Shown: in pieces, positions 37,577 to 39,490 of the stretch
Layout: each line of letters begins with the position of its first letter
How positions within the stretch are numbered: the stretch's first letter is position 1
Source: Schleiferiaceae bacterium
Lineage (GTDB): Bacteria > Bacteroidota > Bacteroidia > Flavobacteriales > Schleiferiaceae
NCBI GenBank assembly: GCA_028357285.1
Contig: JAOMWM010000009.1
Location: forward strand, 1-42,096
Direction of reading: 5' to 3'
Length of the DNA stretch: 42,096 nt
Position numbers and translations under genes: made by a program
Notes under the pieces: generated by a model
The model's database searches: none
What the model was told of the DNA's origin: nothing
What the model saw: only the letters and a program-made list of their open reading frames with translations

Positions 37577-39490
37577 ATGGAGCAATTCGTCGTATCAGCA
37601 AGAAAGTACCGCCCGCAGGCCTTTGAAGCCGTTGTCGGACAGTCACACATTACCGATACACTGCTCAAAAGCGTTGATAATGATCACTTAGCCCAAGCCC
37701 TATTATTTTGCGGACCACGAGGTGTTGGTAAAACTACCTGCGCTAGAATTCTAGCAAAAGTAATCAACGGTGGGGCCAATTTAAATGAGGAAGAATTAGC
37801 GCTCAATATTTTCGAGCTCGATGCCGCTTCGAATAATTCTGTCGATGATATCCGCAGACTTATTGATCAGGTGCGCTTTGCACCTCAAACCGGCAAATTC
37901 AAGGTATACATCATTGATGAGGTACACATGCTCTCACAGCAGGCCTTCAATGCCTTCTTGAAGACGCTAGAGGAACCGCCTGCGCACGCCATCTTTATTT
38001 TGGCGACCACGGAAAAGCACAAAATCATACCAACCATCTTATCCCGCTGTCAAATTTTTGACTTCAAGCGTATAACAGTGGATGATATTGCCGGTCATTT
38101 GGCGTTCGTTGCAGAAAAAGAAGGCGTAAATGCAGAACCTGAAGCCTTGCACATGATTGCAGAAAAGGCGGACGGCGCCTTACGTGATGCCCTTTCATTA
38201 TTCGATCGAATGGTTAGCTTTTCGGGTAATGAATTGACATACGACCAAGTTGTTAATGTACTCGACATTCTGGACTACAACTACTTCTTCCGTGCCATAA
38301 ACCTGGCTAATGAGGTGAACTATCCAGACTTACTCCTTCTCTATAATGAAGTTTTGGAAAAGGGATTCAATGGACATGAATTCGTTGTAGGAATGGCAAA
38401 GCACTTTAGAGACTTATTGGTTGCACGAGAACCGCGCACCGTGGAATTACTCGAAGTTGGTCCATCAATAAGAGAACAATACCTCAGCCAAAGCAAGGCG
38501 AGTTCTACGCGCTTCTTACTCCATGGATTGAAGGTCTTCAATGAGCTCGACGGACAGTACAAAATGGCGAGTCAACCGCGGATATTAGTGGAACTGGGGC
38601 TCTTAAAATTGGTCGAATTTATTTCGCAAGAAAAAAAAAAGTCGCAACCCAGCGTAACACCTAAATCCACAGAGGATTTTCTACCACCGGCCTTACCAAA
38701 ACGAACCGCACCAGCACCACAGACCGTTCCAGCAGCAACCCCAGTGCAAAACACTCCTCCAGCCGTTGTTGCTCCAACAGTGGAAAAGGATGCGACCTTG
38801 GCTTCGTCCGCTTCAGAGTCAGTAGCAGAAAAAGGTGCTACTCCCGATGATCTGCCTGAAGAGCCAGCGCTACCAGAAAACGCTGCCCATGAACCGCCTG
38901 TTGCGAGTCCAGAAGCTGCTTTTGACAACACAACTTCTGAAACATCAACGCCACCACCAGCGGCACCAATCGCATCAAAAAAACCGACTCCACAGCCAGC
39001 GAAACCTAATAGTGGTGGTCTATCCCTTATGGCAGCGTTGAACGATCTATCAAAAGAAAATAATTCACCTGCTTTTATACCCGAAGAAGCGGATGAGGAA
39101 GCTGCTCCGCAGGTACAGGAGGGTCCTCAGAGTGTATTCAACGAAAAGGAACTAATCGACGCAGTTGGCACTTATGTGAAGCAAAGGCACGTAAAAACAG
39201 CTATACGCACGCTACTTTCGGCGCAGGTCCCTAAAATTCTTGATAAGAATACATTGCAGATATCCCTCGATAATAATATCCAGCTTGGTTATTTCAATGA
39301 GGAGCAAAAGGAATTGATTCCTTATTTGAGAAAGAAATTGGACAATTTTGCCTTGCGATTCGAAACCATTCTGGTGGAAAGTGAGCAGGTGAAAAAGCTG
39401 TACCTGCCTGAAGAAAAGTACAAGCACATGGCTGAAAAAAATGCCAATCTCATTTACCTGCGACAGAAAATTAAAACCGATCTCGAATAA
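37577..39490 (+). CDS. dnaX: DNA polymerase III subunit gamma/tau
   Basis: The 637-residue clamp-loader ATPase has Walker A GPRGVGKT (46-53), Walker B IIDEVHM (112-118), the arginine-finger SRC (156-158) and domains I-III to about residue 350. The zinc-module cysteines found between Walker A and B in most bacteria are absent (residues 62-80), a loss I recall as common in Bacteroidota. From about 352 a Pro/Ala/Ser/Glu-rich linker leads to a tau-specific C-terminal domain (about 510-637) that binds the polymerase core or replicative helicase. A ten-A run at 38631-38640 lies exactly at the junction (Glu352-Lys355) and may direct production of a short gamma form of about 359-362 residues. Confidence 0.95.
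   Translation: MEQFVVSARKYRPQAFEAVVGQSHITDTLLKSVDNDHLAQALLFCGPRGVGKTTCARILAKVINGGANLNEEELALNIFELDAASNNSVDDIRRLIDQVRFAPQTGKFKVYIIDEVHMLSQQAFNAFLKTLEEPPAHAIFILATTEKHKIIPTILSRCQIFDFKRITVDDIAGHLAFVAEKEGVNAEPEALHMIAEKADGALRDALSLFDRMVSFSGNELTYDQVVNVLDILDYNYFFRAINLANEVNYPDLLLLYNEVLEKGFNGHEFVVGMAKHFRDLLVAREPRTVELLEVGPSIREQYLSQSKASSTRFLLHGLKVFNELDGQYKMASQPRILVELGLLKLVEFISQEKKKSQPSVTPKSTEDFLPPALPKRTAPAPQTVPAATPVQNTPPAVVAPTVEKDATLASSASESVAEKGATPDDLPEEPALPENAAHEPPVASPEAAFDNTTSETSTPPPAAPIASKKPTPQPAKPNSGGLSLMAALNDLSKENNSPAFIPEEADEEAAPQVQEGPQSVFNEKELIDAVGTYVKQRHVKTAIRTLLSAQVPKILDKNTLQISLDNNIQLGYFNEEQKELIPYLRKKLDNFALRFETILVESEQVKKLYLPEEKYKHMAEKNANLIYLRQKIKTDLE
38631..38641 (+). other. Candidate dnaX frameshift/slippage site (A10 run with A AAA AAG)
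   Basis: Ten A (38631-38640) then G, read GAA AAA AAA AAG in frame. Its end is A AAA AAG (38635-38641), in the same phase as the -1 site of E. coli dnaX. After a -1 shift or one extra A, a stop follows after seven codons; with one A lost, a stop comes even sooner. Thermus dnaX uses a nine-A run for transcriptional slippage. Confidence 0.65.

Follow-up and report, generated by a model that had tools for sequence, protein, structure and literature searches.

Several ways of obtaining the gamma and tau subunits of DNA polymerase III from dnaX have been described. In Thermus thermophilus the gene undergoes transcriptional slippage on nine As (PMC5009743; PMC1088944), the second tRNA-Lys of this organism having been offered as a reason in the argument for slippage (PMC5009743). 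Such slippage is characterised by mRNAs that differ in their number of As and by gamma and tau in a ratio of about 1:1. In Escherichia coli, dnaX is recoded by −1 ribosomal frameshifting at A_AAA_AAG with a Shine-Dalgarno (SD)-like sequence and a hairpin as stimulators (PMC3711429; PMC5009743), and in Caulobacter crescentus the gamma form of DnaX arises by proteolysis (PMC5009743). The GeneTack survey reported 17 dnaX genes with two open reading frames (ORFs) in 12 genera, nine of them with ten As, for which slippage was proposed (PMC3711429); Bacteroidota may be among these nine ten-A species. According to two reviews, enterobacteria appear to be the only bacteria that make gamma by frameshift (PMC4456610), and most other bacteria are without such signals and possibly have no gamma (PMC3290774).

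Here we describe a dnaX gene from a Schleiferiaceae bacterium (Bacteroidia; Flavobacteriales) that carries ten As behind its clamp-loader part, together with the corresponding genes of its relatives. The slippage mechanism is already known; neither the reach of the run nor the free frame of tau turned up in the parts of the dnaX recoding literature that were searched, where we met no statement of a run spanning this class or of a freely varying tau frame. In its main text, as far as consulted, the GeneTack survey describes the run neither for single-frame genes nor for a whole class (PMC3711429).

Sampling of dnaX Loci

Genomes were drawn at five taxonomic levels, with overlap between the draws, and dnaX was present in 22 of 25 for the genus, 82 of 88 for the family, 235 of 256 for the order, 322 of 326 for the class and 196 of 198 for the phylum. 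From these we took 151 loci of the family and order (the window's own included), 65 from other families of the class and 35 from other classes, to which the best 80 of 594 candidate named GTDB loci were added; the closest named relatives among these best 80 are the Schleiferiaceae metagenome genomes L154 and L165, with 83 and 86% identity. Of the 331 loci that entered the count, 319 were scorable, the gene of the window (L001) counted among them, a sample weighted towards the family of the window (77 of 319). The 12 loci dropped comprise five in which the contig ends too early, three short matches, one with Ns and three duplicates; an A9 or A10 is visible in four of the five contig-end loci (L060, L121, L243 and L254). 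L002 and L003 are different genes and were excluded from the count, and family matches in G025 and G052, being contig fragments, were left out. Runs were counted in an interval reaching from 60 nt upstream to 140 nt downstream of the point where the alignable clamp-loader part ends.

The dnaX Gene of the Window

The window, namely the whole stretch of 42,096 nucleotides that was analysed (contig JAOMWM010000009.1 of assembly GCA_028357285.1), contains dnaX on the forward strand as an ORF of 637 codons from the ATG at 37577 (37577..39490), which encodes full-length tau (637 aa) in its annotated frame. Its product matches NCBIfam model PRK14971 (8.6e-198; 659 bits, under the curated cut-off of 685) and, above cut-off, dnaX_nterm (9.1e-111), and it is the single full-length dnaX match in its own assembly of 1.67 Mb, which is 74% complete. 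The dnaX_nterm match spans residues 6-345 and delimits the clamp-loader part with domains I-III that would be common to gamma and tau (37592..38611, forward strand). Further downstream on the same strand lie a Pro/Ala-rich tau linker, read from the translation with an approximate boundary to the tail (38642..39121), and the C-terminal domain found in tau only (39122..39487), which is delineated by tblastn with residues 516-637 and by a tau profile, both of which match relatives behind the run. The linker holds another A run, seven long (38977-38983), which is shorter than the usual slippage length.

The putative slippage site is read directly from the sequence: position 38630 is G, 38631..38640 on the forward strand are ten As (hereafter A10) and 38641 is G, within the codons GAA AAA AAA AAG for residues 352-355. 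A10 thus begins seven residues beyond the gamma domains, which end with dnaX_nterm at residue 345, and the reading frame places the last seven bases in the A_AAA_AAG phase of E. coli (38635..38641, forward strand), a possible ribosomal shift site. In all these respects the initial annotation, which had set the run and its heptamer phase directly after the last clamp-loader domain, is confirmed.

Both frames other than that of tau stop shortly behind the run, 17 and 24 nt after A10. Translation in silico with altered numbers of As indicates that 7, 10 or 13 As would keep tau (636-638 aa), that mRNA with 9 or 12 As would end at the TAA of 38655..38657 (359 aa with C-terminus KKSRNPA, and 360 aa, respectively), and that mRNA with 8 or 11 As would end at the TAA of 38662..38664 (361 aa, and 362 aa with C-terminus KKKVATQRNT, respectively), where a −1 ribosomal shift would also terminate; both stops are on the forward strand. 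The lengths initially predicted for the loss of one A (residue 359) and for one extra A (about 362 residues) are therefore reproduced. A search of the window against Rfam at gathering thresholds gave no matches, and a scan of the window for promoters and terminators yielded nothing further for the dnaX question.

Rarity and Conservation of the A Run

Selection against such runs at a length of nine has been reported for a large proportion of bacterial genomes (PMC1088944). In the 1.67-Mb assembly of the window's genome there are no more than four A/T runs with a length of at least ten, both strands counted; two of the other three come directly after inverted repeats that by eye resemble terminators, and the remaining one is located upstream of an ORF on the reverse strand. 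All three are overlapped by short ORFs that are probably due to chance. In dnaX, a run of at least nine As is present at this place in 277 of the 319 scorable loci, whereas the rest of these 277 genes, 489,186 nt in length, contains 15 such runs, a background of 0.006 per 200 nt. The position of A10 in dnaX is not due to chance. Run lengths, taken from assemblies of which many are metagenomic, are 32 A9, 212 A10, 26 A11, five A12 and two A13; ten further loci have A7 or A8 and 32 have no run, which leaves a gap below nine. Within the window's family (n = 77) there are 65 A10, seven A11, one A12, one A13, one A8 and two genes without a run, and families with at least one run-bearing gene number 61 of the 70 sampled in the class and 13 of the 27 sampled elsewhere. 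Among the named loci, from the best 80 of 594, 71 of 77 have the run.

The 20 scorable genes of the genus, that of the window included, have A10 in 19 cases and A11 in one, so that the absence of the run from close relatives, which had been named initially as evidence against recoding, is not what we find; codons beside the run vary in the genus, chiefly at third positions upstream. Across the whole set the run starts at a median of 25 nt past query residue 345 (5-95%: 16-72), and its place is thus roughly kept. Its first A falls in codon position 2, 3 and 1 in 190, 48 and 39 genes, respectively, and the run is followed by G in 135 genes, by T in 79, by C in 62 and by N in one (n = 277 for both counts). 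Codon phase and flanking bases, unlike the place of the run, are therefore not kept. Of the features that the initial annotation had proposed to look for in relatives, the run itself, the early stops (see below) and the variation of neighbouring codons are all borne out, whereas conservation of codon phase does not hold across the set.

Mapped on a tree, presence or absence of the run changes at least 22 times and its length at least 53 times. Since long A runs mutate, these length changes, together with the frame changes of tau reported below (at least 47), might suggest phase variation, with mutation of the DNA run toggling tau within a population. We regard this as the least probable of the explanations considered, because run length is tightly held (exactly 10 in 212 of 277 genes and in 19 of 20 in the genus) and 59 of the 72 taus in the −1 frame lie behind A10. 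Moreover, the tail of tau binds the replicative polymerase (PMC3290774), so that switching tau off should be lethal.

Stop Codons behind the Run

The run and both stops are kept up in most of the sampled relatives. Stops in both non-tau frames occur within 30 nt in 258 of the 277 genes, a figure that rises to 270 for a distance of 45 nt; control positions 48-420 nt downstream in the same tau frame give 20% and 37%, respectively, and a control in which the tau amino acids are fixed and synonymous codons are redrawn from the usage of each gene gives 29% within 30 nt (275 genes), both controls taking the genes as unrelated and ignoring their kinship. The enrichment extends to the third frame, which is inaccessible to a −1 ribosomal shift and where the share of early stops is 0.919 versus 0.385 for genes with tau in frame 0 and 0.958 versus 0.512 for those with tau in −1. 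We consider this third-frame enrichment the strongest evidence for a process that would produce both other frames.

By eye, many of the loci L086-L103 (family code f3) share a tau-frame motif near (Y/F)-I-I-P just 3' of the run. The codons of this motif supply a TAA in another frame, and protein motif and stop may be co-selected.

Tau in Three Frames

Tau is found in any of the three frames behind the run. The longest frame after it is 0 in 198 genes, −1 in 72 and +1 in seven (n = 277), and a tau profile built from 194 frame-0 tails concurs with 193 in frame 0, 70 in −1 and seven in +1, a support that is partly circular for the frame-0 genes of the training set and independent for the 79 others. 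Five genes have no profile match and two frame-0 genes prefer −1 (L057 and L213); the latter were kept among the 277 and excluded from the tree, genus and profile-supported frame counts. The −1 frame far exceeds +1, an excess that even-handed slippage would not give.

On a FastTree tree built from the shared part, parsimony requires 47 frame changes among 275 genes, a figure that tree error may inflate, versus 63-73 in 20 label shuffles; if only those A10 genes are taken that the profile supports (206), 35 changes are required. Among the 19 coded genera represented by at least two genes, eight have mixed tau frames. Of five named Flavobacterium loci, four (L180, L187, L190 and L199) have tau in −1 and one (L178) in +1, and Chryseobacterium lathyri (L194) has it in −1. 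In these six loci the 0-frame dnaX ORF ends within 16 nt of the run, so that an ORF-based gene call would yield gamma only. Three metagenome-assembled records, L177 (Flavobacteriia), L182 (Chryseobacterium gleum) and L232 (Chitinophaga pinensis), have near-alike dnaX sites with the same phase, A10 and tau in −1; the species names of L182 and L232 look doubtful.

Assembly error was considered as a source of these arrangements and rejected, since it would not account for an A10 shared by 19 of the 20 genes from the genus or for out-of-frame tau in the single-contig genomes G124, G168, G090 and G141. Such genes also disfavour the reading of the run as a neutral or protein-level feature, namely a Lys stretch before the linker that has nothing to do with recoding. 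The run does contain two to four complete AAA codons in a flexible region, as this reading would have it, yet 31% of the upstream Lys codons in the same genes are AAG (1784/5829) and only one of eight upstream Lys triples is all AAA. With tau out of frame behind the run in 79 genes and early stops enriched in both frames, we judge the explanation very improbable, in line with the initial view that the run is unlikely to be neutral.

Loci without the Run

The 42 of 319 loci that have no run of nine or more As include a Bacteroides (L196) and a Bacteroidaceae genome (L230), and run-bearing genes are missing from nine of the 70 sampled families in the class and from 14 of the 27 that belong to other classes. 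Among these 42, 33 give a frame-0 match to the tau profile (weakest E = 0.00066) and one (L311) is a long frame-0 gene with no such match. In two 0.3-Mb genomes of the order (L145 and L147) dnaX stops after about 341 residues, and none of the frames yielded a tau domain; three further loci (L200, L258 and L292) show no tau match and no 0-frame stop within the available stretch.

The remaining three run-less loci belong to the window's own family, L070 and L071 to one genus and L076 to another. They combine an in-phase A_AAA_AAG with an immediate 0-frame stop and tau in −1, and stems starting five or six bases on reach −20.3, −19.9 and −26.5 kcal/mol, respectively (z −2.6, −2.8 and −6.7). From their sequences they look like ribosomal sites of the E. 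coli type with the roles of gamma and tau swapped, and at these probable frameshift sites the hairpin arrangement would have replaced the run, or the run replaced it.

Considering these loci together with the frames of tau, we think it likely that dnaX is frame-indifferent in this class. Slippage on A10 would be so reliable that the written frame of tau could drift almost freely, and most of the class would retain gamma. Genes that lost the run would have abandoned gamma or, in at least two genera, would rely on a hairpin-stimulated −1 ribosomal shift instead, and the called frame in, for instance, Flavobacterium and Chryseobacterium would encode only gamma, with tau hidden in another frame.

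Slippage versus Ribosomal Frameshifting

For the gene of the window we hold it quite probable that A10 is a programmed site of RNA polymerase slippage, mixed mRNAs giving gamma and tau from one dnaX. RNA polymerase would gain or lose As on the run; mRNA with 10 (or 7 or 13) As would be read through to tau of about 637 aa, whereas mRNA with 8, 9, 11 or 12 As would reach one of the two near stops and give a gamma of 359-362 aa, which would keep the clamp-loader domains and omit the linker and the polymerase-binding tail. From this evidence we infer slippage in RNA at a useful frequency and use of gamma by the cell. The initial proposal that one gene makes both subunits by frameshift or slippage thereby gains support from the run and stops of relatives; it had left the choice between the two mechanisms undecided, and our comparison favours slippage by RNA polymerase over ribosomal frameshifting, though it cannot prove it.

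The competing explanation is that gamma comes from a uniform A10 mRNA by ribosomal −1 frameshifting or by sliding of ribosomes on poly-A, which we consider unlikely overall. The window has A_AAA_AAG in phase, and its 74%-complete assembly contains, by a pattern search that may miss odd tRNAs, one tRNA-Lys with anticodon UUU and none with CUU; a condition linked to E. coli frameshifting may thus hold here. ARAGORN, applied to five of 27 loci, confirmed the anticodon in all five, and a CUU gene, the second tRNA-Lys expected to favour slippage, was found by pattern in only one of 17 genomes, so that the tRNA-Lys comparison does not favour slippage. The excess of −1 among out-of-frame taus suits a ribosomal −1 shift and also fits insertion-biased slippage, and the three hairpin genes, which come from two genera of the family, resemble classic −1 sites. 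Yet a −1 shift needs just six or seven As, whereas the run has at least nine and mostly ten, and A_AAA_AAG is in phase at the end of the run in only 97 of the 277 loci. No stimulatory stem-loop was found downstream of the run in the window (MFE −6.9, z −0.9), nor does the set give a hairpin signal there (mean z −0.32 in 275 genes versus −0.19 in 274 control windows); by eye, no SD-like stimulator is present in the 19 bases 5' of the window's run. Bacteroidia ribosomes are reported not to recognise Shine-Dalgarno sequences (PMC9976891), and the upstream stimulator of E. coli should thus not work in them.

The version of this explanation that is hardest to exclude is two-way sliding. On iterated AAA codons ribosomes slide in more than one frame and terminate at out-of-frame stops (PMC4363877), which would account for the third-frame stop that a simple −1 shift leaves unexplained. 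RNA polymerase slippage is preferred here because runs are of nine or more, mostly ten, whatever their phase, because both stops are kept with no stem nearby, because +1 arrangements occur, and because of the SD-blind ribosomes just mentioned. Ribosomal shifting on the same run may contribute, and a mixed mechanism is possible.

If this interpretation is true, the retention of a slippage site by 61 of 70 sampled families within the class, and by 13 of 27 sampled elsewhere, would suggest that selection has favoured gamma, a subunit of unsettled role, over a long time. The many cultured species with the run are open to testing, Flavobacterium and Chryseobacterium among others, in which the 0-frame dnaX ORF ends soon after the run and does not include tau. 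That the frame of tau has changed repeatedly, and that run and hairpin sites occur in one family, would amount to a natural experiment on the replacement of transcriptional by ribosomal recoding or the reverse.

Comparison with Known dnaX Systems

Among the known systems, Caulobacter crescentus DnaX also has a gamma-like form, but by a mechanism that acts on the protein. E. coli dnaX shares with the window an in-phase A_AAA_AAG behind the clamp-loader domains, and the gamma of the window would likewise end in the −1 frame; the window differs in having ten As, a stop eight codons on rather than about one, no visible stem-loop or SD-like stimulator and a maintained stop in the third frame. In the two-ORF dnaX genes of the GeneTack survey, frame 0 encodes gamma and the tau part follows behind the run (PMC3711429), an arrangement that recurs in the 79 out-of-frame genes found here and differs from the single open frame of the window.

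The closest counterpart is Thermus thermophilus dnaX. It belongs to another phylum and has nine As rather than the ten of the window, and slippage was measured there and is deduced here. Both genes carry at least nine consecutive As on the sense strand, encode tau in the annotated frame and have near stops in both other frames, and gamma by truncation, as in T. thermophilus, is also what we propose for the window. The Thermus-type features, namely an A run of at least nine after the clamp-loader domains, both near stops and conservation beyond chance, are all present in the window's gene.
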